30,137 nt of DNA from a virus (IMGVR_UViG_3300047678_000834:1-30137); one strand, 5' to 3'; positions 1 through 14,507 are shown, counted from the first letter of the stretch. Notes: a model not told the origin generated them from the letters alone. Made by a program: numbers and translations.

Positions 1-621
1 TTATAATCTCGAAATCTTTCCCCTTATTTGAAACAGGTGTTTTATAGTTGACCTGCTGATCGTCATATCGTCGTATTCTGGGTTAGCTGCCTTTAATAAA
101 AATGTCCTCTTCGGGTCCGACGGGTTCTTCCTTAAAATCCTAACAAGGCGCTGCTCCTCGGTAATAATTAGGTAGTGGTCTCCCAGCGGTGCCGTCTCCA
201 AGTTTGTAATTTTCTTAATGGCGATTATATCGGTCGGCTTCAGTGTTGGGGTCATCGCTTCATCGGGTACCATAACAGCGGCGAAGCAATCGTTAAACAT
301 TGGGGCGTCGATATAGTAAGAAACTAGTTCCGAATGGTTAAAGAAGTCTGTCCCTTTTACCGGCTTCAGGGTGAAGTCGTAAACCGGTATTGGATTAAAC
401 GCAGCGACGCCTGCCTTTATACCCTTTTCCTCCTTATTTTTTGCTGCCCTGAGATCAACCGAAAACTCAGCCCGGAACTGCTCCAGGAACTCCCGGGGCG
501 GGTCTGCTTTATCCCTATAGTAATGGTTTACACGCTGAGTTGAAAAACTCAGCCGATCAGCGACTTCTTTCTGAGAAATCCCGGTGTCAATGGTGAACTG
601 TTTTAGTAGCTTTCCGTACAT
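1..621 (-). CDS. Phage repressor, HTH + S24-like domain, catalytic dyad lost
   Basis: This 206-residue protein is complete (ATG at 621, TAA at 3-1). Residues about 1-40 form an HTH (ISQKEVADRLSFSTQRVNHY at 15-34). Residues about 78-200 look like the S24/LexA C-terminal domain, with the usual IPVYD entry at 78-82 and the MTPTLKPTDIIAI stretch at 123-135. In self-cleaving members the residue before that Met is the Ser nucleophile and a Lys sits in the later LVKR strand. Here these are Ala122 (codon GCG) and Arg161. A KAG at 69-71 resembles a cleavage site, but there is no visible dyad to cut it. By position and architecture it is the lysogeny repressor, transcribed leftward away from the early operon and probably acting on the TTTGATTAATCAAA sites. 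Repressor role is inferred; domain assignment is by motif. Confidence 0.85.
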   Translation of the reverse strand: MYGKLLKQFTIDTGISQKEVADRLSFSTQRVNHYYRDKADPPREFLEQFRAEFSVDLRAAKNKEEKGIKAGVAAFNPIPVYDFTLKPVKGTDFFNHSELVSYYIDAPMFNDCFAAVMVPDEAMTPTLKPTDIIAIKKITNLETAPLGDHYLIITEEQRLVRILRKNPSDPKRTFLLKAANPEYDDMTISRSTIKHLFQIRGKISRL

Positions 622-779
622 AGTTGCATTTAGTTTAATCTGAATGGGGGAGTAAAAATATACACAAACTTTGATTAATCAAAGGATTTTCAAAAATAAA
701 TATTGTTCAAATTGTTTGGTTTTGTTCAAAATTGATATACTTTTGATAAATCAATAAAAAACAAACGAAATCAAGCATT
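622..779. promoter_or_regulatory. Divergent early control region with two operators
   Basis: AT-rich gap between the leftward repressor and the rightward early operon. A perfect 16-bp palindrome CTTTGATTAATCAAAG lies at 669-684. A second, imperfect copy TTTGATAAATCAAT lies at 742-755, over and just after the rightward -7 box. Between them the word TTGTTCAAA occurs twice (703-711 and 722-730), 19 bp apart, which could be a site for a second regulator such as the HTH protein at 780. On the leftward strand TATTTTTG (698-691) is a possible -7 box for the repressor, without a convincing -33 partner. Confidence 0.75.
715..745 (+). promoter_or_regulatory. Early rightward promoter (Bacteroidota type)
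   Basis: TTTG at 715-718 and TACTTTTG at 738-745 match the Bacteroidota consensus TTTG / TAnnTTTG with a 19-bp spacer. The predicted start is near 752, about 28 nt before the ATG at 780. The operator at 742-755 overlaps the -7 box and presumptive start site, so repressor binding would block initiation. Confidence 0.7.
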
Positions 780-962
780 ATGGCAAAAACCGCTGAAGAC
801 TTTATCCCCGAGGCTGAAGCAATGACCTTTACTGGTTATAGCAGGACCAGCCTTTACAACTTCCGTATTTCCGGGCGCCTCCGCTGGACAGCCTCCGCAA
901 CAGGTCGAAAAATTCGCTACCATAAAAAAGACCTGGAGAAACTTATCGGCCTCACTAATTAA
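780..962 (+). CDS. Small HTH protein (excisionase/Cro-like)
   Basis: This 60-residue protein is a single helix-turn-helix of the MerR/excisionase-like type: EAMTFTGYSRTSLYNFRISG (13-32) is followed by a basic wing (GRKIRYHKKDLEKLIG). It is the first gene of the early operon, directly opposite the repressor, where Cro- or Xis-like proteins usually sit. It could oppose the repressor, activate downstream promoters or serve as an excisionase. No integrase is visible in the window to support the last option. Confidence 0.75.
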   Translation: MAKTAEDFIPEAEAMTFTGYSRTSLYNFRISGRLRWTASATGRKIRYHKKDLEKLIGLTN

Positions 963-980
963 TAACCAAAAAAATAAACT

Positions 981-1673
981 ATGCAAATCGTAAGACGCGA
1001 GCCGGGCGATCAGTTACCTGATCAGTCGGCCATGAATCCACTCGCTAACGCAACACCTCAAAACATCGAGCAGTTTCTTGCTATGTTGAATGAGGAGCCG
1101 CCAGCTAATGAAATATCAATAAACAAACTCGCCGAAAACTCAAAGTACCAGCCGATAGGTATTATCCAGATGCAACTGGATAAGTTCTTTATGGGCCTTT
1201 GGCACACCGAAAATTTCCGTACAAAGGTTATCGCTAACGAAATTGTCGGAGAGGTTGATCTTGTCTTCTTCCACCCGGTTGCAAAAATCTGGATGCGTCG
1301 CCAGGGAGCAGCGTCTGTAATGATCGGCCAAAAGTCAAAGTCTGAAATTACAGATATGGCAGCGAAGATCAAGAACACGCTAACTAAAGATTACCCTCAC
1401 CTGTTGGCATCTTGTATAACATCTGCGGCTAAAACCCTGGGTAAGAGATTCGGGCGCGATCTTAACCGTAAGGTAGAGGATAATTACGAGCGTTTTTATA
1501 CCGAGATCGGCACGGCTGAAGAAGCGCTTTCGTCTATTGAGTGGGATAAGATCGTCACACTAGAAAATCTAAAATCAGTGTGGGATAGTAACCCTAACCT
1601 CCATGATAACAGTCACTTCAAAAAACAGTTTTCATTCTACAAAGCTAAACTAAAAAAACCATGCGCAGCGTAA
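981..1673 (+). CDS. Probable single-strand annealing protein (Rad52/Sak-like)
   Basis: This 230-residue protein carries the strand pattern GEVDLVFFHPVAKIWMRRQG (89-108) followed by AASVMIGQ. It resembles the core of the Rad52-fold annealing proteins of phages (Sak, Mgm101-type), where beta strands with a His-Pro turn precede W-x-x-R-x-G. A helical segment follows with CITSAAKTLGKRFGRDLNR (144-162), including the small-residue AAKTLGKRFG patch typical of this fold. The exonuclease two genes downstream is the expected partner of such a protein. The exact subfamily cannot be told by eye; Erf- or RecT-type is less likely. Confidence 0.6.
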   Translation: MQIVRREPGDQLPDQSAMNPLANATPQNIEQFLAMLNEEPPANEISINKLAENSKYQPIGIIQMQLDKFFMGLWHTENFRTKVIANEIVGEVDLVFFHPVAKIWMRRQGAASVMIGQKSKSEITDMAAKIKNTLTKDYPHLLASCITSAAKTLGKRFGRDLNRKVEDNYERFYTEIGTAEEALSSIEWDKIVTLENLKSVWDSNPNLHDNSHFKKQFSFYKAKLKKPCAA

Positions 1674-1888
1674 AATTTAACGGCGTTTTATACAACGGAA
1701 CAAACTGCCGCCGATTCGAACAACTCGTTCGCACTCTTCACCCGGAATACAAGGGCCGCCGCGAATGGCTTTACTTAAATGGCCCGAGTATTCAATCCCT
1801 GATACTTCGTATACTCGTTAACGTTGGTATCGTGCCTATCAACAAAACCCTTATCGAAGATAATATCCAGCCGGATTTATTTGCGTAA
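1661..1888 (+). CDS. Small protein ending in a clamp-binding-like QPDLF
   Basis: This 75-residue protein overlaps the annealing-protein gene by 13 nt, so translation is probably coupled. The N-terminal half is basic (NCRRFEQLVRTLHPEYKGRR), and no family is recognised. The last six residues are QPDLFA. QPDLF (70-74) fits the bacterial sliding-clamp binding pentapeptide (Q-x-[SD]-L-F), and a free C-terminus is a common location for it. Placement between a recombinase-like protein and an exonuclease fits a replication or recombination accessory that docks on the host clamp. Its function is not known. Confidence 0.7.
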   Translation: MRSVKFNGVLYNGTNCRRFEQLVRTLHPEYKGRREWLYLNGPSIQSLILRILVNVGIVPINKTLIEDNIQPDLFA

Positions 1889-1918
1889 TTATTTATCGTT
1901 AACATAAAAAAAACAAAC

Positions 1919-2650
1919 ATGGAAGATTTACAAATGACATTCCCGGAGCCTGACCAAATCGAGGGCTTTAATGAAGCAATTACCCAGCAGTGGAAAGAGG
2001 CACGCCTCGGTAAGTTCACCGCTTCGACTAATGCGAAACTACTCGGAAAGGGAACCGGCGGAAAAGAGTTTACGGCTGGCGCCCTTACTATGATCTACAA
2101 AAAGGCCGCAGAGATATTAACGCAGGATGCTAACGAAGTCTCCGGCGCTGCTATCAAGTGGGGCGAAGAACACGAACCTATAGCAGCCAAAAGGTTCACC
2201 GACGCGCTCCGTAAGAATGTAGAATATTACGGAAAAGAAAACCCCGTCTTTATCGACCATCCAGATATCGACGGCGCGGGTGGCTCTCCCGACTTGTGGG
2301 TCCCTGAAGAAGAAGCGGTCGGCGAAATTAAATGCCCGTATGAAAGCGGCTATCACATGGAAGTATTACACCGGGTAAAGACTGGAGCCTTCGATCTGGC
2401 AGAATATGATAAGGACTATTACGGCCAGCTTCAGTTTAACATGAAGTTGAAGAACGCGAAGTTCGGGTACTTTATATCGTTTGACCCGCGTGTCCTGGAT
2501 GCTAAAATGTGCCTTGTATTCGTTCGTGTAGAGCGTAACGACGAATATATTAAAGCAATGGAACCGAAGGTTAAGCGAGCGGTTGAAGTAAGAGACCAGT
2601 ACCTTACTGAAGTAGGTTTCTACAGCGAAGAAAACAAAGCTGCTGCGTAA
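1919..2650 (+). CDS. YqaJ/lambda-type exonuclease
   Basis: This 243-residue protein matches YqaJ-like viral recombinases of the PD-(D/E)XK nuclease superfamily. It shows the N-terminal W-x-x-x-R-x-G (W25, R29, G31), WGEEHEP (81-87), GGSPD with D125, and the GEIKCP box with E136 and K138. These are the expected metal-binding and catalytic positions. Length is usual for the family. It would resect double-stranded ends to single strands for the annealing protein at 981. It ends the early operon, 19 bp before a strong terminator. Confidence 0.88.
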   Translation: MEDLQMTFPEPDQIEGFNEAITQQWKEARLGKFTASTNAKLLGKGTGGKEFTAGALTMIYKKAAEILTQDANEVSGAAIKWGEEHEPIAAKRFTDALRKNVEYYGKENPVFIDHPDIDGAGGSPDLWVPEEEAVGEIKCPYESGYHMEVLHRVKTGAFDLAEYDKDYYGQLQFNMKLKNAKFGYFISFDPRVLDAKMCLVFVRVERNDEYIKAMEPKVKRAVEVRDQYLTEVGFYSEENKAAA

Positions 2651-2658
2651 GGATTTTT

Positions 2659-2671
2659 TTTGATAAATCAA
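2659..2671. promoter_or_regulatory. Operator-like copy TTTGATAAATCAA
   Basis: This 13-bp word is identical to the first 13 bases of the operator at 742-755. It lies right after the exonuclease stop codon and touches the first arm of the terminator. It may be an auxiliary repressor site for the nearby promoter, or chance in AT-rich sequence. Confidence 0.45.
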
Positions 2672-2703
2672 CGCCCCAATTTATAACTGTTGGGGCGTTT
2701 TAT
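2670..2703 (+). terminator. Rho-independent terminator of the early operon
   Basis: AACGCCCCAA (2670-2679) pairs with TTGGGGCGTT (2690-2699) around a 10-nt loop and is followed by a short T-rich tract. Confidence 0.85.
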
Positions 2704-2725
2704 TAAACTTTGGGGATAATTTAAC

Positions 2726-2767
2726 TTTGATAAATTTTGATTAATCAAAGCTATCCTTGTACTTTCG
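2726..2767 (+). promoter_or_regulatory. Replication-operon promoter overlapped by operator
   Basis: The perfect palindrome TTTGATTAATCAAA (2736-2749) contains the TTTG -33 element (2736-2739). After a 20-bp spacer, TACTTTCG (2760-2767) is a one-mismatch -7 box. A half-site, TTTGATAAAT (2726-2735), abuts the palindrome. The predicted start is near 2774, giving a leader of about 40 nt before the ATG at 2814. Confidence 0.7.
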
Positions 2768-2813
2768 TTCCTGTTCATTTCTATAATTCCAACTTAAAAA
2801 AGCTAACAAAACA

Positions 2814-3257
2814 ATGACTAGCAAAACCCCTAACGAACTGCTGGAGATCATCTCTTTGGCTGTGGCTCCATTAACGCCCCCTGGCTTTCAGGCTAAGGTT
2901 ATCCTTATGCCCGATAACCTTCTCGACACACCAACGATTAAAGAGGCAAAAGAAATCCGCCTTCTAGCTTGTGAATTTTTCGGCAAGACGGAAGAGTATA
3001 TACTTACCCGTGGACGGAAGTTCGAAGTTGTTATTATTCGAAAGATGCTTTGTAAACTTCTTAGAAAACACACGACGTTATCACTCCAGAAAATCGCTTC
3101 GATAGTTGGTTACGGTGACGATCATAGCTGTGTATGTCGCGGCATTGAAGCGCTGGAATCTTTGATGTTTACAGAAAAAGAGTTCTCGGAGCAATACGCT
3201 AACCTGGAAGAGTTTATTAAAATCAACCTCGATCATTCACATAAAAAAGCCAGCTAA
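2814..3257 (+). CDS. DnaA domain IV-like DNA-binding protein
   Basis: This 147-residue protein has residues about 50-118 resembling the C-terminal DNA-binding domain of DnaA: a basic RGRKFEVVIIRKMLCKLLRK stretch (66-85), then LSLQKIASIVGYGDDHSCV (89-107), where GDDHS corresponds to the GRDHTT signature that contacts the DnaA box. There is no AAA+ ATPase domain; the N-terminal 45 residues are unrecognised. As first gene of an operon with a nuclease and a primase-helicase, it could bind the phage origin or modulate host initiation. Its stop overlaps the next start. Confidence 0.75.
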   Translation: MTSKTPNELLEIISLAVAPLTPPGFQAKVILMPDNLLDTPTIKEAKEIRLLACEFFGKTEEYILTRGRKFEVVIIRKMLCKLLRKHTTLSLQKIASIVGYGDDHSCVCRGIEALESLMFTEKEFSEQYANLEEFIKINLDHSHKKAS

Positions 3258-3772
3258 TGAAAAAAACCTACAACCTTATAACTGAGGTAAATAATCTTCC
3301 ATCTTCATTAATCTGTAGTGAGTGGAGTGTGCTTGTAGAAGTTTATTTTGAAACCACCGGTAACCCCGCGCAGCTTCCTAATATTGAAGTACGGTCCTAC
3401 AGATTTTTAGATAGGCCTGCCGCAAAGAATTTTATAAAAAGCTTTGAACACCATAAAAATAAATTGGATTCGTACGGCTATACTATTGTTCACGGCAAAA
3501 GCCAGCCTAATCAATCCAATGACTTTAATACTATCCTCTCCAGTATCGGCGAAGTGTTAACTGAGAAGAACAAACGCTACGGCGGAAGCGCCCTGAATCC
3601 AATATCTGTTTTTGCCGGTAAGTCGAAAGTCGGCCAACGCGCTGACGACAAAGTGAGCCGGATAAAAAACAGCGATGTTCTTCGTAAGAACGATGTCGCT
3701 GACTTGATCGGTTACCTGGTTCTTATGTGCCAGGAGAATGGATGGCATGACTTTAAAGATCAGATCGACTAA
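3257..3772 (+). CDS. NTP-PPase/Nmad1 (DUF1599)-like protein
   Basis: This 171-residue protein has two parts. Residues 1-85 are unrecognised. Residues about 92-162 have the helical pattern IGEVLTEKNKRYGGSALNP, F119, RADDKVSRI (128-136) and NDVADLIGYL (145-154). This is typical of phage proteins related to DUF1599/Nmad1 and the all-alpha NTP pyrophosphohydrolases, with acidic residues as likely metal ligands. Such proteins are thought to act on nucleotides, but the substrate cannot be deduced. It overlaps the genes on both sides by one base, so the operon is tightly coupled. Confidence 0.6.
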   Translation: MKKTYNLITEVNNLPSSLICSEWSVLVEVYFETTGNPAQLPNIEVRSYRFLDRPAAKNFIKSFEHHKNKLDSYGYTIVHGKSQPNQSNDFNTILSSIGEVLTEKNKRYGGSALNPISVFAGKSKVGQRADDKVSRIKNSDVLRKNDVADLIGYLVLMCQENGWHDFKDQID

Positions 3773-4074
3773 TGACGCCACTAAATAAATGCCCGCAATG
3801 GTGGCAGGATATGGCGGCTGAATTTCCTAACGTTGAATTGCTAAGGACCCGGTTAGAATTGACGGCGCAACGATTTCCAATACTTCAAGGAAACGAAGCG
3901 CAATGTCAACCAGCGGAGAAACTACAACCCGAAAAACCAAACCTTTCAAACACGCATGGCAGCAATCAATCCAGGACGCAAAAGACGCCTGGACAATTAA
4001 ACACTTCCCCAGCTTTGCAGCGGCTTCGGAACCGCTGCGCGGAAAATGGAACGACGAAACCGCTAACGGTTTAA
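3772..4074 (+). CDS. Hypothetical protein overlapping the nuclease gene
   Basis: This 100-residue frame starts at an ATG sharing its A with the previous stop (TAATG), which argues that it is translated. Residues 1-44 (KCPQWWQDMAAEFPNVELL) look like ordinary protein. From residue about 45 the reading becomes rich in Q, N, T and P, because 172 nt are shared with the VRR-NUC gene in another frame. Either the overlap is real or the functional product is the N-terminal part. No family recognised. Confidence 0.5.
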   Translation: MTPLNKCPQWWQDMAAEFPNVELLRTRLELTAQRFPILQGNEAQCQPAEKLQPEKPNLSNTHGSNQSRTQKTPGQLNTSPALQRLRNRCAENGTTKPLTV

Positions 4075-4391
4075 CTAAGTGCGTAATTGATTACCTGAAA
4101 TTTATCGGCGGAAACTTTACCCGGGTGAACGTAATGGGTACACCCAGGAAAGATAAAAAAACGGGTAGAACCTTCTTTACCCCATCAACAACTAAGAAGG
4201 GTACAGCTGATATCGTCGGCGTATTCCGCGGGCGATATACGGCTATTGAGGTTAAGATCGGGGCAGATATACAAAGTAAATTTCAGATACAGGAGCAGAG
4301 GGACGTAACCGAAGCCGGTGGCGTTTATATCATTGCCCGAAATTTTCCCGACTTCCTTAATGAGTTCAAAACCATATTTAAACTAAACTAA
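3903..4391 (+). CDS. VRR-NUC domain nuclease
   Basis: This 162-residue protein has its nuclease core at about 75-145: KKGTADIVGVFRGRYTAIEV contains D103 of the T-A-D-[IL] motif and the E-x-K pair (E116, K118), followed by Q130. This is the VRR-NUC/Holliday-junction-resolvase branch of PD-(D/E)XK nucleases, frequent in phage replication modules. The ATG at 3903 is the first in this frame after the stop at 3834, with AAGGAAA upstream. It may process branched replication or recombination intermediates. Confidence 0.82.
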   Translation: MSTSGETTTRKTKPFKHAWQQSIQDAKDAWTIKHFPSFAAASEPLRGKWNDETANGLTKCVIDYLKFIGGNFTRVNVMGTPRKDKKTGRTFFTPSTTKKGTADIVGVFRGRYTAIEVKIGADIQSKFQIQEQRDVTEAGGVYIIARNFPDFLNEFKTIFKLN

Positions 4392-4394
4392 CAA

Positions 4395-6812
4395 ATGACA
4401 CGACCCGAATTTTTAATACAGGCAGCTAACACGTTAATGCTGGATGGCCTTAACGTTATTGCTGTTGATAAAAGTAAGAAAGCTATTTACTCATGGAAGG
4501 AATTCACAATTGACAAAATTTCTACTGCTCACCTGACAGAGCAGATTAATAACGATAAAGCTGCTGGTATTGCTGTTATATGCGGTGCCATTTCTGGCGG
4601 CCTGGAGGTTATCGACTTTGATCTTAAATACGATCTTACCGGTACTCTTATGCAGCGTTATAAGGCGCTCGTACCTGCTGAGATAATTAAAAAGCTTCGA
4701 ATCGTACGAACGAAATCGGGAGGCTTTCATTTTTACTATCGTTGCGAGGTTATCGAGGGTAACAAGAAACTGGCTTCGCGTCCTCCGACACCTGAAGAGA
4801 AGAAGGATACACCACACCTGAAGCAGTTGGTACTTATCGAGACCCGGGGAGAGAATGGTTATGTAGTGGCTCCTCCGTCTGATGGTTACGAGGTTGTGCA
4901 GCCTAACGATATTCCACTCCTCACTATTGAGGAGCGAGATATTTTACTCGATGCCGCCCGGTCGTTTATGGAAGTTCATACCGAAGAGCGCGCCCGTTTT
5001 ACAAGTACCGGCACTCAGTTTGTGATCTCCCCTTTCGATGACTACAATAACAAAGCCGACACTGTGGCCCTGCTCCTTCGTAACGGCTGGACCGTAGACG
5101 AAGAGAATGCAACAAAGGTTTTCCTGAAGCGCCCAGGTAATACCTCAGCTAAAAACTCCGGCAACTACCACAAAGAGAAGAAACTCTTTTATGTATGGAC
5201 AACCTCAACAGAGTTTTATCCGGAGAAAGCATATAGTCCCGCCGCGGTTTACGCAACGCTTATGCACAATGGCGATTTCAGCGAAGCCAGCAAGCAATTA
5301 ATCCGTGAAGGATATGGAACTAGGAAGACCGCAGAATCGGTACGCGAAGCGCTACAGAAACCCCTGGAGGTTGATTTTAAATTTTGGGAAGTAGTTGAGA
5401 CAAAGAAAGGCGGTACCAAGATCGAAGTAAGTCTTACAAAGCTGGTTAACTTCATTCATGTAAAAGGCGGGTTCAGCGGATACAGGTATAACGAAGCCAG
5501 CGAAAATATTATCGTTCGGGTACAGGATGGGCTGGTTAAGGAGGTTGAGATTTACGATATTAAGCAGTTCTTAAAAAACCACATTGAAACACTCCCCGAC
5601 ACATTCGACGGCATTACCCCCGACGATCTGCTGGAAGTTGTATACCGCGAGTATACGCAATATCTTAGCAAGGGGTTTATGGACTTCCTGGCCGTTAAGA
5701 AGTTGGACTTCCTAAAGGATACACCGGATAAGGCGTACTTCCCGTTTAAGAATGGAATTGTAGAGGTTTCAAAAGCTGGGGTTAAATTCCATAAGTACGG
5801 AGAGTTTAATAAAGTGATCTGGCGTTCTCAAATGATCGACAGGAATATCGACCTTATGGATGATCTTGCTAACTCCCTGGATTACGATAATATCGACTAT
5901 TGTAAATTCGTCGAACTGGCTGCGGGTCAAAGCCAGGAAAAGTTTGAGTACTTTATCTCGATCATTGGCTATATGCTGCACAAGTACAAAGACCCGAAGA
6001 GATCATTCGCGGTTATCCTGGCCGAAGAAGCGGAGAACGAAGCGGACGGCGGCGGTACCGGTAAGGGATTGTTTGTAAAGGGCGTGAAGGAACTGATACC
6101 TACCGAAATATTTGACGGCAAGCAATTCAGCGCTGGGAAGACCTTCGCCTTCCAGCGGGTAAGCCTCGACACTAAACTGATCGCAATTGAGGATGCGAAG
6201 CGCTCCTTCCGTTTCGAGGAGTTGTATAGCTTTATCACTGAAGGGTTGCCGGTTGAGAAGAAGAACCAAAAAGAATTTTTCATCCCTTACGAAGACAGCC
6301 CGAAGATCGTGGTATCAACAAATTATGTTATCTCCGACGAAGGCAACCACGCAAAGCGCCGCCAGAAGGTGCTGGAGTTTTCGAACTACTTCAAACCGGA
6401 CCATACACCTTTCGACGAGTTTGGCCGGATGCTGTTTAAGGACTGGGATAATGAGGAGTGGAACAGGTTCTATAATTTTATGTTTTGGTGTTGCCAGGTT
6501 TACCTGGAAGGCGGTATACTCCAGGCCAGCCAGTCCGATACAAACAAGATCAAAAACATAAAGCTGAAGTTCACCGAAGACCTGTACTTATGGTATAACG
6601 GGTTTCTCGAATCAGATGCCGGTGAGGAGAAACTTACAAAGGAAATTCACCAGGGGTTTTTATCTGCTTACGGAATGACCGGTAAGGATTTTGATAAGAG
6701 GCGGTTCATGGCTGGAATCCGGTACATAGCCAACACCCTGGGGCATAAACTGGAGGAAGGAACAAAGCGAGTTGAAGGAACAGTTCAAAAGTTCATCAAA
6801 GTAACAAGGTAG
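4395..6812 (+). CDS. Primase-polymerase/SF3 helicase replication protein
   Basis: This 805-residue protein combines an N-terminal PrimPol-like domain with a C-terminal superfamily 3 (D5/P4-type) helicase. The PrimPol domain shows VIDFDLKYD (73-81, D74/D76 metal ligands) and RTKSGGFHFYY (105-115). The helicase has the Walker A GGGTGKG (552-558), a following acidic strand LIAIED, and the sensor/finger region VVSTNYV...HAKRRQKVLEF. It would synthesise primers and unwind the phage origin, so replication is largely self-contained apart from host polymerase. The gene ends the replication operon, directly before a terminator and the candidate origin. Confidence 0.9.
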   Translation: MTRPEFLIQAANTLMLDGLNVIAVDKSKKAIYSWKEFTIDKISTAHLTEQINNDKAAGIAVICGAISGGLEVIDFDLKYDLTGTLMQRYKALVPAEIIKKLRIVRTKSGGFHFYYRCEVIEGNKKLASRPPTPEEKKDTPHLKQLVLIETRGENGYVVAPPSDGYEVVQPNDIPLLTIEERDILLDAARSFMEVHTEERARFTSTGTQFVISPFDDYNNKADTVALLLRNGWTVDEENATKVFLKRPGNTSAKNSGNYHKEKKLFYVWTTSTEFYPEKAYSPAAVYATLMHNGDFSEASKQLIREGYGTRKTAESVREALQKPLEVDFKFWEVVETKKGGTKIEVSLTKLVNFIHVKGGFSGYRYNEASENIIVRVQDGLVKEVEIYDIKQFLKNHIETLPDTFDGITPDDLLEVVYREYTQYLSKGFMDFLAVKKLDFLKDTPDKAYFPFKNGIVEVSKAGVKFHKYGEFNKVIWRSQMIDRNIDLMDDLANSLDYDNIDYCKFVELAAGQSQEKFEYFISIIGYMLHKYKDPKRSFAVILAEEAENEADGGGTGKGLFVKGVKELIPTEIFDGKQFSAGKTFAFQRVSLDTKLIAIEDAKRSFRFEELYSFITEGLPVEKKNQKEFFIPYEDSPKIVVSTNYVISDEGNHAKRRQKVLEFSNYFKPDHTPFDEFGRMLFKDWDNEEWNRFYNFMFWCCQVYLEGGILQASQSDTNKIKNIKLKFTEDLYLWYNGFLESDAGEEKLTKEIHQGFLSAYGMTGKDFDKRRFMAGIRYIANTLGHKLEEGTKRVEGTVQKFIKVTR

Positions 6813-6855
6813 GAAGGCTCAATACTGAGCGGTCCGAATCCGAAACAATAATCCG

Positions 6856-6887
6856 AAGCCGTATACTTCAATGTGTACGGCTTTTTT
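6856..6887 (+). terminator. Rho-independent terminator after the helicase gene
   Basis: AAGCCGTA (6856-6863) pairs with TACGGCTT (6876-6883) around a 12-nt loop; the last stem bases merge into a run of six T (6882-6887). Confidence 0.85.
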
Positions 6888-7603
6888 GCATTTTCTCATG
6901 TTGTTAGTTTTAGTTTAGTTTGTCCGGGTTTTTCCAGGCCTGGACTGTTTTTAAAATCTCCGTCGTACGATATACAAAAATACACCGTAACCGGTGTAAC
7001 CTGATGTAACTGTAAGCCAGTTACACTTTACTATTTGATATACAGGAACTTATAAGACTGTAACTGTGTTACTATTGTCTTTTATATACGTATAAAGAAA
7101 AAATAAACTCGTATAGAAAGTAATAGAACGGGTTTTTATCGTTACGCACACTGATATATTCCACTGGAATCCTTTACTGTATTATGTTACCAACTGTTAC
7201 CGACCTAAAAAGAGACTGGTTACATTTCAGTTACGAAATGGTGATTTTTTTAAGAAAGCCAACGAATTACCGACTATTATGTACCTGGAAGGGTGATACT
7301 TCCTTCCTGAGCCTCAGAAACGCCCCTTCCTTGCCTTATCTCCAGTTACGCAATACCAATAACCGCCCGCCTGGGATATAGCCCGTTTACGGGCGCGAAA
7401 ATTGATTTATCAATTGCGGCGGTTTGATCGGCGGTAATGAATCGTACGGCGGACCGAAAACACCAGCTAATCAACCCCCAGGCCGACCCCTAAATGCCTT
7501 AGCCTTCCCGAAACAATTACCAGTACTGCGTCTCGATGATTATTACCGTGTCCTAAATGGGACACTTTTAGATATATGCTGTGGGTAAGTGTGTGTAATA
7601 TAA
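6888..7603. other. Non-coding region, candidate replication origin
   Basis: About 715 bp without a convincing gene. Between 6987 and 7349 the words GTAAC/GTTAC occur 12 times (starts 6987, 6996, 7006, 7020, 7060, 7068, 7141, 7186, 7196, 7219, 7230, 7345), against fewer than one expected by chance in that length. Several are 9-11 bp apart. A perfect inverted repeat, GTAACTG-TAAGC-CAGTTAC? reads here as GTAACTG (7006-7012) and CAGTTAC (7018-7024) with a 5-nt spacer. ACACCG/CGGTGT (6982-6987 and 6992-6997) forms another. AT-rich sequence at 7073-7140 could be an unwinding element. The position right after the primase-helicase fits an origin. Further along are GCCCG-TTTA-CGGGC (7381-7394) and GTGTCC/GGACAC (7548-7565). 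Confidence 0.55.
7401..7414. promoter_or_regulatory. Isolated operator-like site ATTGATTTATCAAT
   Basis: Core TTGATTTATCAA differs by one base from the perfect operator core and is identical to the core of the second site at 7616-7629. It lies about 200 bp upstream of the SSB-gene promoter without an obvious promoter of its own, so it may be an auxiliary site. Confidence 0.45.
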
Positions 7604-7647
7604 TTTGATTAATCAATTGATTTATCAAAGATCGGTTCGTACATTTG
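7604..7647 (+). promoter_or_regulatory. Promoter of the SSB operon with tandem operators
   Basis: Two overlapping operators, TTTGATTAATCAAT (7604-7617) and ATTGATTTATCAAA (7616-7629), have centres 12 bp apart. The second supplies a one-mismatch -33 element (ATTG, 7616-7619). After a 20-bp spacer comes a perfect -7 box TACATTTG (7640-7647). The predicted start near 7654 gives a leader of about 26 nt before the ATG at 7680. Confidence 0.72.
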
Positions 7648-7679
7648 CTTACAATCATTTTTTCATCAAACCCAATTTT

Positions 7680-7997
7680 ATGGCAGTTCAAAAAGAACAG
7701 GTATTCCCGGGCGGGGTACGCTTATTTAACCCGCACCCGTCGGCCCCCGACTTTGTTAAAGGCACGATGGTTATCACTATTAACGAACTTGTAAAATTCT
7801 GTAAGGAAAACGAACAATACCTTACCGATTACAACGGTCAAAAACAATTGCGCCTCCAGCAACTCCAGTCCAGCAACGGTAACCTTTACGCCGTCGTAGA
7901 CACCTACCGAAAAGAAGACGCGAAGCCAGCAACAAAACCCGCCACGGCAACCGGTAAGCAACCCGCCCCCGACGCTGTAGACGATCTCCCATTCTAA
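7680..7997 (+). CDS. SSB-like protein with acidic C-terminal tip
   Basis: This 105-residue protein starts at the ATG at 7680; an in-frame TTG at 7605 lies inside the operators and upstream of the predicted transcription start. Residues 8-78 (FPGGVRLFNPHPSAPDFVKG, then VITINELVKF) form a compact beta-rich domain. Residues 79-98 are a K/P/A/T-rich linker. The end DAVDDLPF matches the acidic, Phe-terminated tip through which SSB proteins recruit partners. It probably coats single-stranded DNA for replication and recombination, although the core is not a standard OB-fold SSB sequence by eye. Confidence 0.65.
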   Translation: MAVQKEQVFPGGVRLFNPHPSAPDFVKGTMVITINELVKFCKENEQYLTDYNGQKQLRLQQLQSSNGNLYAVVDTYRKEDAKPATKPATATGKQPAPDAVDDLPF

Positions 7998-8008
7998 ACC
8001 CCGGCACC

Positions 8009-8131
8009 ATGTACATACTAACCGAAGAAGAAGCCGAGGTTATAGCAGCCGTCACCTTTAGCGACGATCTACCATACAACGACGAAGACTTAAAGCCCTT
8101 CGTCAATGTACAACCCAAAGGAACAAGATAA
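8009..8131 (+). CDS. 40-residue acidic hypothetical protein
   Basis: A short frame begins MYILTEEEAEVIAA and ends PKGTR. It starts 12 nt after the SSB-like stop and ends 7 nt before a GC-rich hairpin. Composition is strongly acidic in the first two thirds. Position between two operon genes and coding-like codon use favour a real gene; no function is recognised. Confidence 0.5.
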   Translation: MYILTEEEAEVIAAVTFSDDLPYNDEDLKPFVNVQPKGTR

Positions 8132-8138
8132 TAAACCG

Positions 8139-8168
8139 GGGCGCCGTAATCCCGCGGCGCCCTTCTTA
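8139..8168 (+). terminator. GC-rich hairpin, terminator or attenuator
   Basis: GGGCGCCG (8139-8146) pairs with CGGCGCCC (8155-8162), followed by TTCTTAAAT. The stem is strong but the T-tract is broken, so partial read-through into the sigma-like gene at 8180 is likely. Confidence 0.6.
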
Positions 8169-8179
8169 AATCTTCAGCT

Positions 8180-8770
8180 ATGACCCGCGAACTAATCATT
8201 CAGGAATTTACCGACAACATTAAAGACTTTAAGCGTATGGCGCTTAACGTATCAAACCGACAGGACGCCGACGATCTATTCCAGGAGTGTGCCGTTATGC
8301 TTCTGGAGTTTTCAGAGGAGCGCCTTATCAGCTACTACAATCCTAACCACGGGCTAAAGCCTATATGGTTGCGGATACTCGTTAACCAGTACAAAAGTAA
8401 GACGTCCAGATTTCATAAACAGTACCGGAAGCAGGAACAGTTCATCCAGGATAAAGGCGCTGACATAGTCTACAATGATCAGTCCACAGAGTTGGACGAC
8501 TTCACCGTGGATATGTCCGAACTCAACACAGCCCGTGACAACGTTCACCGCCTTAACGGCGAGATGTTTCCTTCAGAACTTGAGGAAATGGTATTCGCCT
8601 TGTATGTTGATACTGGCAGTCTTCGCAAGACCCTTGCCGCCATCGACCCGGAAGAGGTTAAGAAACTCAGCGGGAAAAAATCCGTTGAACTTTTCGACCT
8701 GAAGACGGTACACGAGATCGTAAAAAAATACCGTAGAACAATACGCGCCTTCGTTAGCGCCGCCGCTTAA
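8180..8770 (+). CDS. Sigma-70-like (ECF-type) phage factor
   Basis: This 196-residue protein has its N-terminal half resembling sigma region 2: a helix with VSNRQDADDLFQECAVMLLE (24-43) corresponds to the D-AEDLxQE motif, followed by PIWLRILVNQYKSKTSR (61-77) like region 2.4. The C-terminal half has helices ending in a basic stretch KKYRRTIRAF that could be a degenerate region 4. Phages of Bacteroidota often carry such factors. It sits in the middle region, before the late genes, and could direct host polymerase to late promoters (see WATACT-N7-ATG). This role is inferred. Confidence 0.65.
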   Translation: MTRELIIQEFTDNIKDFKRMALNVSNRQDADDLFQECAVMLLEFSEERLISYYNPNHGLKPIWLRILVNQYKSKTSRFHKQYRKQEQFIQDKGADIVYNDQSTELDDFTVDMSELNTARDNVHRLNGEMFPSELEEMVFALYVDTGSLRKTLAAIDPEEVKKLSGKKSVELFDLKTVHEIVKKYRRTIRAFVSAAA

Positions 8771-8799
8771 TCATATTCTCCACAATCAAAACTCACACA

Positions 8800-9111
8800 A
8801 TGAAAAGACCTTTCAAATCTTTACTGTCCCTGGCCGCCGCAATGGTAGGTTTCGGCTCGGCTTCTACCGCCGTGGCCATGGCTAACAATGTTATCGACAC
8901 AGCCAACAAAAGCGCAGAAGAGTTTAAGGAAACCTTAGCTGCGGCCAGCGCCTTGCCCGCCGATATTCCAGCGGTTCCTAAGCCTACGTTTTTGTATAAG
9001 CAATCATCCGGCGTTATCCCTGCCCGCCTTCTCAATCAAAGGCAGTACCGTAAGCGGTGCGCTCAAAACCCATGGCTGCGCAAATCCAAAAAGCACAGGT
9101 CCGGTAAGTAA
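8800..9111 (+). CDS. Hypothetical protein with N-terminal hydrophobic segment
   Basis: This 103-residue protein starts MKRPFKSLLSLAAAMVGFGS, with an Ala-rich hydrophobic segment at about 8-30 that could be a signal or membrane anchor. The end is very basic (RQYRKRCAQNPWLRKSKKHR). No family recognised. Its stop shares a base with the start of the next small gene (TAATG), indicating coupled translation. Confidence 0.6.
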   Translation: MKRPFKSLLSLAAAMVGFGSASTAVAMANNVIDTANKSAEEFKETLAAASALPADIPAVPKPTFLYKQSSGVIPARLLNQRQYRKRCAQNPWLRKSKKHRSGK

Positions 9112-9275
9112 TGGCCGTAAAGAAGAAACGTCAGGCGGTTGTCGTATCGGCGCCGCCTGTTCCATACCAACCGCGTAGGAGATATCACTTAATGAAAAGG
9201 ACGCGGGAGCAGATACTAAAAGTTTGGCCTGTTCCCTGGGTATTTAAAAACCAAGAACCGGGAAGCCTTTTATAA
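9111..9275 (+). CDS. 54-residue very basic hypothetical protein
   Basis: The frame begins MAVKKKRQAVVVSAPPVPYQ and continues through PRRRYHLMKRTREQ to a Trp-rich end (KVWPVPWVFKN). It overlaps the preceding stop by one base. The high Lys/Arg content suggests nucleic-acid contact, but no family is recognised. A short hairpin (GCCTTT/AAAGGC, about 9265-9279) covers its stop codon. Confidence 0.5.
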   Translation: MAVKKKRQAVVVSAPPVPYQPRRRYHLMKRTREQILKVWPVPWVFKNQEPGSLL

Positions 9276-9300
9276 AGGCCGGTTCGTAACAAAAATCAAC

Positions 9301-9714
9301 ATGGCAAATAAAGAAGAATCAAGATTACTTAAACACGCATTATCAAGATACGGACTGAAGGCCCAGGTAATGCAGACAATGGAAGAAGTTGGAGAATTAC
9401 TCCAGGCTCTTAATAAGGTAATGCGTAATCCTGATACAGGTAACCACTATCGTCTTGCTGAAGAGATCGCAGACGTTGAGATTATTCTGGAGCAAATGAA
9501 GGTAGGCTTCCGCCTCGATGGTATTGCAGAAAAGATAAGGGGGCAAAAGCTGCTTCGTCTGGCTGAGAATCTAAAGGCCAATTACTACCCCAGCGAGGAA
9601 GTTCAGTCGTACGACGGACCTAGTGCGGTAGTGGTTCCAATGATAAGGCCGACCCACATCCCGACCCCTAATAACTGTACAGCAACCGGAAGCCGCTCCT
9701 ATGAATGCTTATAA
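9301..9714 (+). CDS. MazG-like NTP pyrophosphohydrolase
   Basis: This 137-residue protein carries the MazG-type all-alpha signature: MEEVGELLQAL gives E-E-x-x-E (E28, E29, E32) and AEEIADVEIIL gives E-x-x-D (E55, D58), the Mg-binding residues. These enzymes hydrolyse nucleoside triphosphates to monophosphates. Phage versions are proposed to clean the nucleotide pool or lower the host alarmone ppGpp. The last 40 residues are Pro-rich and unstructured-looking. The gene overlaps the next by 14 nt. Confidence 0.82.
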   Translation: MANKEESRLLKHALSRYGLKAQVMQTMEEVGELLQALNKVMRNPDTGNHYRLAEEIADVEIILEQMKVGFRLDGIAEKIRGQKLLRLAENLKANYYPSEEVQSYDGPSAVVVPMIRPTHIPTPNNCTATGSRSYECL

Positions 9715-10075
9715 AGGAAATGTCTGTGTCCCAGTTCGGACACTACACGAAGAAACCGGGCAATTTCGCCCGGCTTTTTCGTGTCCTCCTTACGAACTAC
9801 GCCGCGACGAGTTTAACCATTACCGAGAATTGCACCGACCCGACGGTAACGGACAGCAGGTATTAACCAGGGGAGCCTTCAATAAGCTGAAGCAACACCT
9901 AACGGTAATGGCCTGGCTGTCCTTCGATGTACACGGCTGGTTATTTCGGAAGGCGTGTAACGGTGACGAGGAAGCGCTTTTCAAACTCAACCACTGTTAC
10001 GATCTATACGAAGAGGTTATCACCAAAGCCATGGAGGAAGTCCCTGGCTATTCCGGCCCGTCGGATTATCAATAA
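9701..10075 (+). CDS. Hypothetical protein with a long hairpin in its 5' end
   Basis: This 124-residue frame starts within the end of the MazG-like gene. Residues 33-115 (RRDEFNHYRELHRPDGNGQQ, KLKQHLTVMAWLSFDVHGWL) look like a compact alpha-helical protein; no family is recognised. Codons about 15-28 overlap a long, terminator-like hairpin (9745-9784), so the early residues may be constrained by RNA structure. No better ATG was found between the hairpin and the conserved-looking part. Confidence 0.6.
   Translation: MNAYKGNVCVPVRTLHEETGQFRPAFSCPPYELRRDEFNHYRELHRPDGNGQQVLTRGAFNKLKQHLTVMAWLSFDVHGWLFRKACNGDEEALFKLNHCYDLYEEVITKAMEEVPGYSGPSDYQ
9745..9784 (+). terminator. Long terminator-like hairpin inside a reading frame
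   Basis: ACACGAAGAA (9745-9754) pairs with TTTTTCGTGT (9775-9784, one G-U) and CCGGGC (9756-9761) with GCCCGG (9768-9773) around AATTTC, with a single A/C mismatch between. It includes five T after the inner GC stem, as in a rho-independent terminator. It begins 31 nt after the MazG-like stop but lies within the frame 9701-10075. Confidence 0.6.
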
Positions 10076-10080
10076 AGAAA

Positions 10081-10314
10081 ATGAATGTCATGCAAAGTAA
10101 AAATGAAGTAGAGTTCTTAACCTGGTTCCATGTTATTCAGGAAGGTGTGCCAGCCTGGGGGTTCGCAGCTGATGACGAAGGTATAATTCTGAAGTGTTGC
10201 CCTACTCAGCGTTGGATGCTGGGCGAGGAACTGAAGGATGTACGCGACTATTTCCTTAACACGAAAGCAACCGTCATAAATCTATTTCCTAACGTCGTAA
10301 AGGTTATGCCATGA
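10081..10314 (+). CDS. 77-residue hypothetical protein
   Basis: The product reads as a small mixed alpha/beta protein (EVEFLTWFHVIQEGVPAWGF, then VRDYFLNTKATVINLFPNVV). No motif or family is recognised. It lies 5 nt after the preceding gene and its stop overlaps the next start as ATGA, so it is part of a coupled string of small middle genes. Confidence 0.6.
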   Translation: MNVMQSKNEVEFLTWFHVIQEGVPAWGFAADDEGIILKCCPTQRWMLGEELKDVRDYFLNTKATVINLFPNVVKVMP

Positions 10315-10529
10315 ATACGTTATTCGATCTCGAACTCTCTCCGCCGCCGCCGCCGCCTCCTCCGTCCGGTATACGGTGCAGGAACTGCCTCTTCTGTTAC
10401 AAACATCAGTACAACAATACTCGTTACTGCATGAAGCAACGCCAGCGAAGAACGTCTTACGGCCATAAGAAAATAAAAGCCCTGGACCATTCCTGTCCGA
10501 TGTTTCAGTCTAATACTATTTCCAAATAA
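10311..10529 (+). CDS. Small Cys-rich zinc-ribbon-like protein with poly-Pro
   Basis: This 72-residue protein has eight consecutive prolines (11-18, CCG/CCT codons), then IRCRNCLFCYKHQYNNTRYC (21-40) with Cys 23, 26, 29 and 40, a basic stretch KQRQRRTSYGHKKIK and Cys62. The Cys spacing suggests a bound metal ion. Similar small Cys-rich proteins are common in Bacteroidota phages; function unknown. The proline run would need elongation factor P for efficient translation. The start overlaps the previous stop by 4 nt. Confidence 0.65.
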   Translation: MNTLFDLELSPPPPPPPPSGIRCRNCLFCYKHQYNNTRYCMKQRQRRTSYGHKKIKALDHSCPMFQSNTISK

Positions 10530-10541
10530 AAAAAATCAACA

Positions 10542-10802
10542 ATGAAAATCTTAGTTATCATGCTTGCCGGTTTTTTCTTCGGTGAAGCATTCCCTACCTG
10601 GGCGCGCCCTGTAATTGAAAAAGTGAAGACCCGATTCGGCTGGCGCCGCCTGAAGCCATTCGATTGTGAGGCCTGTTTGTCTTTCTGGTTTACACTGGTT
10701 GTCGGCATATTCGGCCTGGGTTATTTTTGGGCGCCGCTGGTTGCCTGGGTTGTCTTCAAGTTGACAGCTGCTTATCAGTTTAAAAAAATCACTGGCAAAT
10801 GA
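10542..10802 (+). CDS. Small membrane protein with CxxC-x-FW motif
   Basis: This 86-residue protein has a hydrophobic N-terminus (ILVIMLAGFFFGEAF, 3-17), a basic middle (KTRFGWRRLK), the motif FDCEACLSFWF (40-50) and one or two C-terminal membrane helices (52-78). The Cys-x-x-Cys-x-x-Phe-Trp pattern recalls small DUF1360-like inner-membrane proteins; this assignment is tentative. It could be a superinfection or lysis accessory, but nothing shows this. Its stop overlaps the next start (ATGA). Confidence 0.62.
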   Translation: MKILVIMLAGFFFGEAFPTWARPVIEKVKTRFGWRRLKPFDCEACLSFWFTLVVGIFGLGYFWAPLVAWVVFKLTAAYQFKKITGK

Positions 10803-11176
10803 TAGCGAACTTTCTCCCTGAACATATCGAAATCCTGGACAGGAACCGGCATTACTATACCTCATTAAAGAAAAGCGGCACAATAAATAAGTTATCGTCT
10901 GTGACCGTAATTGAATTTGTAAAGGTATACAGCGAGGTGATATCCTCCAGGCCGGTATCCTTGTATTGTTCCGCCTGTGTAGTTGAGGTTATTGAACTGT
11001 GTTACCTGAATTACGATAAATACCTGATCGAAAATGAGCCAGAACCAGAACCAACAGCGGACGCCGGACCCGAACAGATCGGCAACGCATCCGGACTACC
11101 CGCACCTGAAAATAAAGGAACGCCTGTTCAAAAGCGTAGACGAACTCCGCGAAAAAATCGACAAGTACTTCGCTGA
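10799..11176 (+). CDS. Hypothetical protein overlapping terminase small subunit
   Basis: This 125-residue protein begins in a 4-nt ATGA overlap with the previous gene. Residues 1-80 (HIEILDRNRHYYTSLKKSGT, VIEFVKVYSEVI) look like a folded helical protein. Residues 80-125 are E/P/A- then K/R-rich and lie in the 143 nt shared with the terminase small subunit in another frame, so that tail may be a by-product of dual coding. No family recognised. Confidence 0.6.
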   Translation: MIANFLPEHIEILDRNRHYYTSLKKSGTINKLSSVTVIEFVKVYSEVISSRPVSLYCSACVVEVIELCYLNYDKYLIENEPEPEPTADAGPEQIGNASGLPAPENKGTPVQKRRRTPRKNRQVLR

Positions 11177-11519
11177 GTTGAAGGATAATAAGAAGCAGGT
11201 AATGTCTGCCAGCGGTCAGGTAAAGAATATCGACGACCCGCTTATCCCTACTATTGAAAGTCTTGCCTCTTACCTGGGCTTTAAGTCCGTGAAGTCATTG
11301 TATAACTATGCAGAGAATCCAGATTATGCAGACTTCCACGATGTAGTAGCAGAAGCGAAAGCGAAGATACTCGGGTTGAAAACCCTGGGGCTTGTCAATG
11401 GTAAAGGCTCGTCTGCCGGTTTAATATTCGACCTTGTCAATAACCATGGCTACAAAAACAAGTCAGAGGTAGAAAGTGAGGGTAAGTTAGAAACTACTAT
11501 CAAAGTAGTATACGAATAG
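11034..11519 (+). CDS. terS: Terminase small subunit (P22 gp3-like)
   Basis: This 161-residue protein resembles the gp3-like DNA-packaging family: a helix ELREKIDKYFAEL (37-49), then PTIESLASYLGFKSVKSLYN (72-91) as the HTH-like part, a helix FHDVVAEAKAKI (101-112) and the closing motif GLIFDLVNNHGYKNK (129-143), the equivalent of the family's A-x-F-x-L-K-N-x-G-W-K-D end. It would bind the packaging site and recruit the large subunit. It is separated from the large subunit by 1.4 kb holding five small genes. A strong terminator follows. Confidence 0.82.
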   Translation: MSQNQNQQRTPDPNRSATHPDYPHLKIKERLFKSVDELREKIDKYFAELKDNKKQVMSASGQVKNIDDPLIPTIESLASYLGFKSVKSLYNYAENPDYADFHDVVAEAKAKILGLKTLGLVNGKGSSAGLIFDLVNNHGYKNKSEVESEGKLETTIKVVYE

Positions 11520-11574
11520 AATCGAATAAAGATCAATATAGGTTACTTGTGAATGCCTTATCAGGCTTGAAGTC

Positions 11575-11610
11575 CCGGCTGCAATCCCGCAGCCGGTTTT
11601 CTATTTTTTA
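11575..11610 (+). terminator. Rho-independent terminator after terS
   Basis: CCGGCTGC (11575-11582) pairs with GCAGCCGG (11589-11596) around a 6-nt loop, followed by TTTTCTATTTTTT. Confidence 0.9.
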
Positions 11611-11630
11611 AAAAAAAAAGTTCGAAATTG

Positions 11631-11670
11631 TTTGTTTTTGATTTTCTTTGATTATCTTTGATATATCAAA
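11631..11670 (+). promoter_or_regulatory. Promoter with operator over the -7 box
   Basis: TTTG (11631-11634), an 18-bp spacer and TATCTTTG (11653-11660) match the Bacteroidota promoter. The 14-bp palindrome TTTGATATATCAAA (11657-11670) starts inside the -7 box and covers the predicted start. The centre is AT rather than TA, so it is a variant of the other operators. The ATG follows at 11683. Confidence 0.7.
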
Positions 11671-11682: not shown

Positions 11683-11904
11683 ATGAATAATACGGCAAAA
11701 ATCGAAAGCATCACAAGGTACATGAAAAGAAAAGAAGAGGAAATCGGCATTCAAACTAAGCATATCCTGAAGATCGGTGAAGATAAAGTCGGTACTGCCT
11801 ACATGAAAGACTACTACAATAACCTTGACTTGTGGGATGAAGCAAATAACCAGCGCCGCGCCCTCATCGTGTTAATGTCATCATCTCCAGTACCAAGGGC
11901 TTAA
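11683..11904 (+). CDS. 73-residue hypothetical protein
   Basis: A charged, helical small protein (RYMKRKEEEIGIQTKHILKI, then KDYYNNLDLWDEANNQRRAL). No family recognised. It is the first gene behind an operator-controlled promoter, which argues for expression early or under repressor control, unlike the late genes that follow. Confidence 0.6.
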   Translation: MNNTAKIESITRYMKRKEEEIGIQTKHILKIGEDKVGTAYMKDYYNNLDLWDEANNQRRALIVLMSSSPVPRA

Positions 11905-11935
11905 CTAGTACTTAAACAAAAAAACATAACAAACT

Positions 11936-12157
11936 ATGAGCGAATCCCCATCCACGTATGAAGTAGGCGGCTTCTTCTTTAAGAGAAGCCTGGACCCCGA
12001 TTACTATGACTGTTACGACGTATTCCTTTGTAATATGAAGGTTGCATCCCTTGACGCATTAACTTCCGAACTGCGTTTTAAAGACGATGTTAGCTTTACG
12101 GTTACGGGTTTGTCTGACCTTATTAATGCAACTCAACACCTATCACAATTTTTTTAA
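11936..12157 (+). CDS. 73-residue hypothetical protein, paralogue A
   Basis: The product shares a spaced pattern with the next gene: Y-x-x-G-x-x-x-F-x-x-x-L-D, then L-D-A-x-x-x-E and a final L-x-x-A-x-x-x-L-S-x-F-F. The two are probably diverged tandem duplicates. It starts after an A-rich leader (AAAAAAACATAACAAACT). No known family. Confidence 0.62.
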   Translation: MSESPSTYEVGGFFFKRSLDPDYYDCYDVFLCNMKVASLDALTSELRFKDDVSFTVTGLSDLINATQHLSQFF

Positions 12158-12174
12158 CAATTAAAAAATCAATA

Positions 12175-12420
12175 ATGGCAACGAAAAAAAGAAAGACAAC
12201 AGCCCCCGAAAGTTACACCTGCGGTAATTTAAGATTCATGCAGCTAGACGCAGGGAAGTGCTGCAGCCTGTATTCTGTGCATAAGTATTCGACCGCGCTC
12301 GGTACCCTGGATGCTGAATTTAAAGAGTTCATTCCTGTAGGCCCGTCTGGCAATATATCGTATCACGATATGGGCTGTCTTCAAACTGCCGCTTCTGATC
12401 TCAGTAAGTTCTTCAACTAA
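12175..12420 (+). CDS. 81-residue hypothetical protein, paralogue B
   Basis: The product has a basic N-terminus (ATKKRKTT) and then the same scaffold as the gene at 11936 (YTCGNLRFMQLDAGKC, LGTLDAEFKEF, CLQTAASDLSKFF). Four cysteines are absent from the sister protein except for its own different Cys positions. The pair lie 17 nt apart in the same operon. Function unknown. Confidence 0.62.
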   Translation: MATKKRKTTAPESYTCGNLRFMQLDAGKCCSLYSVHKYSTALGTLDAEFKEFIPVGPSGNISYHDMGCLQTAASDLSKFFN

Positions 12421-12434
12421 AACAATCTAAACCT

Positions 12435-12635
12435 ATGGCACAAAGGACAACATTCACGGCCAATGTAACGTACGACGTAATTATCCCCGATGACGTTGAC
12501 CATGCGGAAATAATACGCAAAAACGGTATCGCCAACACATTGGTATCTATGATGCTGGGTAAGGTAATCGAAGGCGCACAGTCATTTGGCGCCGTTATTG
12601 ATAACGTAAAAGTAGAACACAATGGCAACAACTAA
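12435..12635 (+). CDS. 66-residue hypothetical protein
   Basis: A small protein with a beta-like first half (TTFTANVTYDVIIPDDVDHA) and a C-terminal strand (GAVIDNVKVEHN). No family recognised. It overlaps the next gene by 14 nt, so both are probably translated together. Confidence 0.58.
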   Translation: MAQRTTFTANVTYDVIIPDDVDHAEIIRKNGIANTLVSMMLGKVIEGAQSFGAVIDNVKVEHNGNN

Positions 12636-12831
12636 GACAAGCGGTAAACGTTATTCGAGCAAACCGCCAGACGTTGTAAAATTCTACACCAGTAAAGGCA
12701 AGGCCAGCGGCCAGCCCTGGGAGTACTGCATAATTTTGGAGTATCCTGACGGTAAGCATCAGCGTATTTGCTTCAACGAAGAAGAGATTACTCGAATGCG
12801 TGAACACCTGGTGCCAAACGGGAAACTTTAA
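12622..12831 (+). CDS. 69-residue basic hypothetical protein
   Basis: The product is basic at the N-terminus (TTKTSGKRYSSKPPDVVKFY) and continues with EYCIILEYPDGKHQRICFNE, which reads as two beta strands joined by a turn. It is the last gene before the terminator that separates this small-gene operon from the large terminase gene. Function unknown. Confidence 0.58.
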   Translation: MATTKTSGKRYSSKPPDVVKFYTSKGKASGQPWEYCIILEYPDGKHQRICFNEEEITRMREHLVPNGKL

Positions 12832-12852
12832 TATCAACACCTAAGCACATCA

Positions 12853-14501: not shown

Positions 14502-14507
14502 TTGATG

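Follow-up and report, generated by a model that had tools for sequence, protein, structure and literature searches.

A dispersed family of putative palindromic operators overlapping predicted promoters in a probable Bacteroidota phage

This analysis concerns a family of predicted palindromic operators, and the candidate repressor gene beside the first of them, in the viral contig IMGVR_UViG_3300047678_000834. The window analysed was the whole IMG/VR record, a linear stretch of 30,137 bases, one end of which falls on the stop codon of the repressor gene. The exact core TTGATWWATCAA is present in eight copies in this record, with starts at 671, 743, 2660, 2737, 7402, 7605, 7617 and 11658. An earlier note on this DNA had listed a dispersed family of 14-bp operators, and all of its sites were found in the window (eight sites); the one that it gave as 2659-2671 is present, its length being 14 bases. 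The sites are as follows, all unstranded except operator 8.

669-684: operator 1, a 16-bp perfect palindrome (14-bp site 670-683), whose minus-strand TTG forms the -33 box of the promoter that reads the repressor gene
742-755: operator 2, TTTG shared with a -7 box; TTGAT half-site at 732, 11 bp upstream
2659-2672: operator 3, auxiliary-like, directly after unit 1 at the foot of its terminator; 77 bp centre-to-centre from operator 4
2736-2749: operator 4, a perfect palindrome whose TTG (2737-2739) is a -33 box; TTGAT at 2727, 10 bp upstream
7401-7414: operator 5, auxiliary-like, in a non-coding stretch upstream of unit 3
7604-7617: operator 6, upstream partner in a tandem pair with a 12-bp step
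7616-7629: operator 7, whose TTG (7617-7619) is a -33 box
11657-11670, plus strand: operator 8, fused to an exact -7 box at 11653-11660

All eight operators are intergenic, although intergenic DNA makes up only 8.6% of the window. An order-2 Markov model predicted 0.018 copies of the core for the intergenic DNA, and an order-3 model predicted 0.06 for the window as a whole. No copy of the core was found in coding DNA (91% of the contig) or in the right-hand 18.4 kb of the window, beyond 11,670; the closest further match, with one mismatch, lies within a gene at 25,055. Other dyads of the same 5+5 form with a 2-base gap each occur at most three times in the window. In a leave-one-out weight matrix analysis, each omitted operator scored 16.5-20.5 bits, compared with 11.7-12.4 bits for the best non-site. 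A similar density of sites in coding regions, which the earlier note had named as the result that would speak against the family, was thus not observed. A loose search with the 14-mer (at most three mismatches) gave only mild enrichment (8 sites, 3.3 expected), and the strength of the evidence lies in the exact core and its position rather than in such loose enrichment. These results demonstrate that the operator family is real and far above chance expectation, with several copies of one operator distributed over four intergenic control regions at separate transcription units.

The -7 box consensus of Bacteroidota is TAnnTTTG (PMC9723704). We searched for this box with a TTG -33 box located 17-23 nt upstream. 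Only three exact intergenic matches to this pattern of the Bacteroidota sigma-A promoter are present in the window, at 738, 7640 and 11653, and each of them is fused to an operator. Near-consensus promoters with one mismatch, at 2760 and at 662/660 (the latter being that of the repressor gene), are also fused to an operator. The predicted promoters are as follows.

716-745, plus strand: early promoter; TTG 716-718, N19, exact -7 box TACTTTTG at 738-745
2737-2767, plus strand: unit 2 promoter; TTG 2737-2739, N20, near-consensus -7 box TACTTTCG at 2760-2767; fused to operator 4
7617-7647, plus strand: unit 3 promoter; TTG 7617-7619, N20, exact -7 box TACATTTG at 7640-7647; fused to operator 7
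11653-11660, plus strand: unit 4 -7 box TATCTTTG, exact; same register as operator 2
Minus strand: repressor promoter from the pattern search; TTG from operator 1, then N17 and TATATTTT (662) or N19 and TATTTTTA (660)

The overlaps fall into two registers. In the first, seen at 742 and 11657, the operator opens with the TTTG that also closes the -7 box. In the second, seen at 2736 and 7616, operator positions 2-4 (TTG) serve as the -33 box, and exactly 20 nt separate them from the TA of the -7 box. Since TTTG is contained in the Bacteroidota consensus, an operator can at the same time form part of a promoter. Overlap with the -33 or -7 boxes had been proposed in the earlier note for four promoters; the association holds, and the count rises to five when the repressor's own promoter is included. 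Six of the eight operators are at or beside promoters, whose activity we infer from their match to the consensus. No recognisable promoter was found at the two others, operators 3 (2659) and 5 (7401), which look like auxiliary sites.

Beyond the eight palindromes, only seven plus-strand TTGAT pentamers are found in intergenic DNA, and three of them (732, 2727 and 11648) precede a lytic promoter-operator by 10-11 bp. A fourth, at 11638, is two helical turns upstream of operator 8 and forms with 11648 a tandem of 10-bp steps. At the remaining lytic promoter (7616), a full operator (7604) lies 12 bp upstream in place of the lone TTGAT. All four lytic promoters therefore carry a half-site roughly one helical turn upstream, whereas the repressor promoter has none. 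Among 200,000 sets simulated with a Markov model, none reached four. It should be noted that this statistic was chosen after the pattern had been seen, and it is a strong hint rather than a proof.

The protein most likely to bind the eight operators is encoded divergently from the early genes, at the left end of the contig.

1-621, minus strand: candidate repressor of 206 amino acids, with an N-terminal XRE-type helix-turn-helix (HTH) and a C-terminal LexA/CI-like S24 domain

This assignment relies on position and protein family. The repressor matched Pfam PF00717 (4e-8, above the cut-off), HTH_31 (1.5e-4) and the PHROG 4 transcriptional repressor family (1.4e-12). The best match of its AlphaFold model (mean predicted local distance difference test score, pLDDT, 75) was LexA (E 7e-6), with phage 186 CI also among the matches, and its N-terminus was matched by SinR-type HTH domains. 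The protein thus has the HTH and S24 domains and the fold of LexA and lambda CI repressors. Alignment to Bacteroidales homologues that carry SGDSM, VK and an Ala-Gly linker revealed PDEAM, VR and no aligned Ala-Gly, so that the catalytic Ser-Lys pair and the Ala-Gly cleavage site are both missing. Because these residues are lost, self-cleavage of the repressor is unlikely, and its release probably needs an antirepressor instead.

Downstream of the repressor gene, four rightward units are each closed by a predicted U-tract hairpin, with z-scores from -4.6 to -5.7.

780-2650, plus strand: unit 1; HTH_17 (Xis/Cox/Cro-like) protein, 230-residue protein, small protein and YqaJ exonuclease (family matches)
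780-962, plus strand: HTH_17 gene; HTH_17 domain 8e-7, PHROG 66 excisionase/regulator 1e-4
2659-2707, plus strand: unit 1 terminator; GC-rich stem core about 2670-2698, RNA fold -22 kcal/mol, z -5.7
2814-6812, plus strand: unit 2, replication; protein with a DnaA C-terminal domain, two proteins of unknown function, possible nuclease, Prim-Pol/helicase-like protein
6855-6884, plus strand: unit 2 terminator; z -5.6
7680-11519, plus strand: unit 3; SSB-like protein, weakly sigma-factor-like protein, MazG-like pyrophosphohydrolase, small terminase subunit (11034-11519)
11575-11596, plus strand: unit 3 terminator; z -4.8
11683-12831, plus strand: unit 4; five small proteins of unknown function (open reading frames)
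12852-12872, plus strand: unit 4 terminator; z -4.6; separates unit 4 from the large terminase and structural genes

Because the terminators close each unit, each needs its own promoter and, to be silenced, its own operator. At the end of unit 1, the T/A tracts of operator 3 lengthen the predicted terminator stem. The large terminase and structural genes, which start at 12,891 behind the last of these terminators, have neither an operator nor an exact intergenic sigma-A promoter, and an indirect cascade is therefore likely there. One product of unit 3 (8180-8770; 196 residues) weakly resembles RNA polymerase sigma factors (NCBIfam E 1e-4) and is a candidate for the late-gene activator. The late region also contains strong terminator-like hairpins (12852-12872, 14507-14530 and 17535-17559) with no recognisable exact sigma-A promoter downstream, an arrangement that points to antitermination or to promoters of a different type.

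Several other features of these units were recorded. The first gene of the replication unit (2814-3257) encodes a DnaA C-terminal DNA-binding domain (PF08299, 2e-9) as a stand-alone protein. The non-coding stretch 6900-7230, adjoining the Prim-Pol gene, carries several inverted GTAAC/GTTAC repeats (for instance TGTAACTGTAAGCCAGTTACA at 7005-7025) and is possibly a replication origin. In the non-coding DNA between operators 5 and 6, the sequence CTAAATGCCTTAG at 7490-7502 matches CTAA-N5-TTAG, the SOS motif recognised by some LexA-like regulators of Bacteroidetes; two more matches to this motif lie inside genes, and the match at 7490-7502 may be due to chance. The SSB-like protein of unit 3 ends in DDLPF, and its label rests on this tail and on gene context because its structure model was uninformative (pLDDT 42). 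No family match was found for the four unit 4 proteins that were scanned.

Taken together, these observations make it probable, in our judgement, that the eight palindromes are the operators of the phage's own HTH-S24 repressor, acting through the following mechanism. A repressor dimer would bind TTTGATWWATCAAA and, because operator and promoter share bases, would directly block RNA polymerase: within a Bacteroidota sigma-A promoter, the outer TTTG of one operator arm serves either as the -33 box or as the closing four bases of the -7 box. At the four lytic promoters, the TTGAT half-site one turn upstream would allow a second subunit or dimer to bind cooperatively, so that these promoters would be held more tightly than that of the repressor, a single palindrome that would be autoregulated. 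Repression at one divergent region would be insufficient because terminators close the operon ends. The late genes would stay silent for want of an activator, for which the sigma-like protein of unit 3 is a possible candidate. With the cleavage residues gone from the S24 domain, derepression would require an antirepressor or some other signal. This reading draws on the site count and intergenic restriction, the promoter fusions, the half-sites, the family and fold of the repressor, the fixed-spacer palindromes bound by HTH_3 plus S24 regulators of Bacteroidota (PMC8565304), the terminators and the lost residues. Whereas the sites, their positions and their overlap with predicted promoters are observed, repressor binding, cooperativity, lysogeny and the mode of induction are what we infer. 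The proposal of the earlier note that one repressor could silence the early, replication, SSB and small-gene units is supported in part by the operator fusions and from the plausible divergent repressor; the structural genes from 12,891 on may be silenced only indirectly, perhaps through the sigma-like protein.

Searches for relatives gave little that resembles this arrangement. No close relative of the repressor was found in the viral contigs searched, and only one of 396 Chitinophagaceae genomes, a Ferruginibacter, contains a close homologue (L184 10001-10621; 62% identical across the full length). This homologue is a chromosomal orphan located between histidine-kinase-like and dehydrogenase-like genes, with no surrounding phage genes, and it has kept the Ser and lost the Lys. 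Neither the large terminase relatives (80 loci; 59% identity) nor the primase relatives (20 chromosomal regions) showed such an operator family. None of 35 comparison regions (viral contigs and chromosomes) had three or more copies of any intergenic 5+5 dyad, and pattern scans of other viral contigs (operator plus promoter, or the tandem form) revealed no examined stretch with three or more sites. In unrelated viral contigs (L088-L183), the gap between TTTGATWWATCAAA and a following TAnnTTTG is most often 9 nt (59 of 97 matches) and next most often 10 nt (20), and a few such sites adjoin divergent XRE-like genes (L096, L100 and L157). An operator shared by many phages was considered from this spacing preference; after a context check the preference was ascribed mainly to the -33/-7 spacing itself. 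From the promoter type and the homologues, the phage probably infects Bacteroidota, with a host that is perhaps a member of the Chitinophagaceae.

Several of these results weigh against the assignment of the operators to the phage repressor. No relative was found that keeps both the repressor and the sites: within 10 kb on either side of the Ferruginibacter homologue there is no exact TTGATNNATCAA, and only a degenerate palindrome, TTTAATTAATAAAA, lies right before its start codon, at a -7-like TATCTTTA. With regard to a lysogenic life, a search of the record with PF00589 (tyrosine integrase) gave no match, but the linear contig ends at the repressor gene. Finally, the HTH_17 protein (780-962) could bind some or all of the operators.

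In one alternative reading, the small HTH_17 protein of the first early gene binds the sites and damps the early and repressor promoters later in infection. Its domain and PHROG 66 matches fit such a role, as do the position of its gene next to operators 1 and 2 and the TTGAT tandem repeats at 10-12 bp steps, since Cox-type proteins bind direct repeats phased with the helix turn. The core is palindromic, however, as expected for a dimeric HTH-S24 repressor, and winged-helix proteins of this kind, of 60 residues, usually act on direct repeats near the att or switch region only; we regard this explanation as unlikely, while use of the operators by both proteins, as with lambda CI and Cro, is possible. 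Binding by a host regulator, which the phage would exploit so that its transcription tracks the state of the host, would agree with the frequency of TTTGATWWATCAAA, 9 nt and TAnnTTTG in unrelated viral contigs (the 59 of 97 matches above). These matches are nearly always single per stretch and largely due to the TTTG in the -33 box, few adjoin an XRE gene, and the Ferruginibacter genome (5.4 Mb, which may not be that of the host) has eight places at one mismatch or fewer, mostly off promoters, all of which render a host regulator quite improbable.

The two operators without a promoter, one of them at the foot of a terminator, could also be taken to mean that bound repressor halts elongating polymerase, as in L5-type mycobacteriophages. 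Only two such sites exist, with none in genes and none in the late region. The sites are symmetric, unlike the asymmetric stoperators of L5-type phages, to which a monomer binds (PMC9283540). It is simpler to regard the two as auxiliary sites that serve cooperative binding or looping, and an additional action of the stoperator type appears very improbable. As for the absence of any regulator, some TTTGAT overlap is to be expected in AT-rich promoters whose two boxes both contain TTTG. The promoter consensus nevertheless does not require the second inverted arm, eight exact dyads were found where about 0.05 are expected, two of them are at no promoter, and none of the 35 comparison regions has at least three intergenic copies of any such dyad. 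A family of promoter or chance sequences without a regulator is already disfavoured and is hardly credible.

The site family links the early promoters of a single genome to a single predicted DNA site, and it defines for a Bacteroidota phage a regulon that is concrete and can be tested. The TTTG of the consensus suggests a simple route along which dispersed operators can arise in Bacteroidota. If the mechanism is true, the early programme could be closed down by one repressor at several places simultaneously. In the literature searched, no phage switch of this kind was described for Bacteroidota phages. We advance only tentatively, as somewhat short of an even chance, the broader view that a non-cleaving LexA-like repressor with operators in two exact registers and helix-phased half-sites solely at lytic promoters, geometry alone distinguishing lytic from repressor promoter, could be the first dispersed-operator immunity described in this phylum.

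The operators of phage 186 and of the Gifsy phages are located at the immunity region. The system described here would resemble those of 186 CI/Tum and Gifsy in its proposed relief by an antirepressor rather than by self-cleavage, as known for their non-cleavable repressors (PMC3121763), and the structure matches include 186 CI. The non-canonical LexA regulators of Bacteroidetes (HTH_3 plus S24) share the domain order, the control of several operons per regulator and the use of fixed-spacer palindromes, in their case GGA-N5-TCC or CTAA-N5-TTAG (PMC8565304); they have kept the self-cleavage residues that are lost here, and the sites here are TTTGATWWATCAAA. The contrast drawn in the earlier note with lambda-type control from a single divergent region is a fair one, but it is not new, as dispersed-operator immunity is already known from P1 C1 and from the L5 type. 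In L5-type cluster A mycobacteriophages, the repressor sites are likewise dispersed beyond a single switch region, as asymmetric, monomer-bound stoperators that stop elongation (PMC9283540). By contrast, the sites here are symmetric and centred on promoters, just two being without one, and asymmetric sites located in number in transcribed regions off promoters were not found. A comparable layout is that of phage P1, in which one immunity repressor, C1, acts at 22 operators scattered over separate transcription units (PMC8546580) and is inactivated by the antirepressor Coi, where an antirepressor is proposed here. This likeness is drawn from operator layout and not from repressor homology, and the P1 operator is a 17-bp asymmetric site whereas here a 14-bp palindrome occurs at fewer places and with Bacteroidota-type promoter boxes. 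The system would thus work as P1 immunity does, with a palindromic operator and Bacteroidota promoters.

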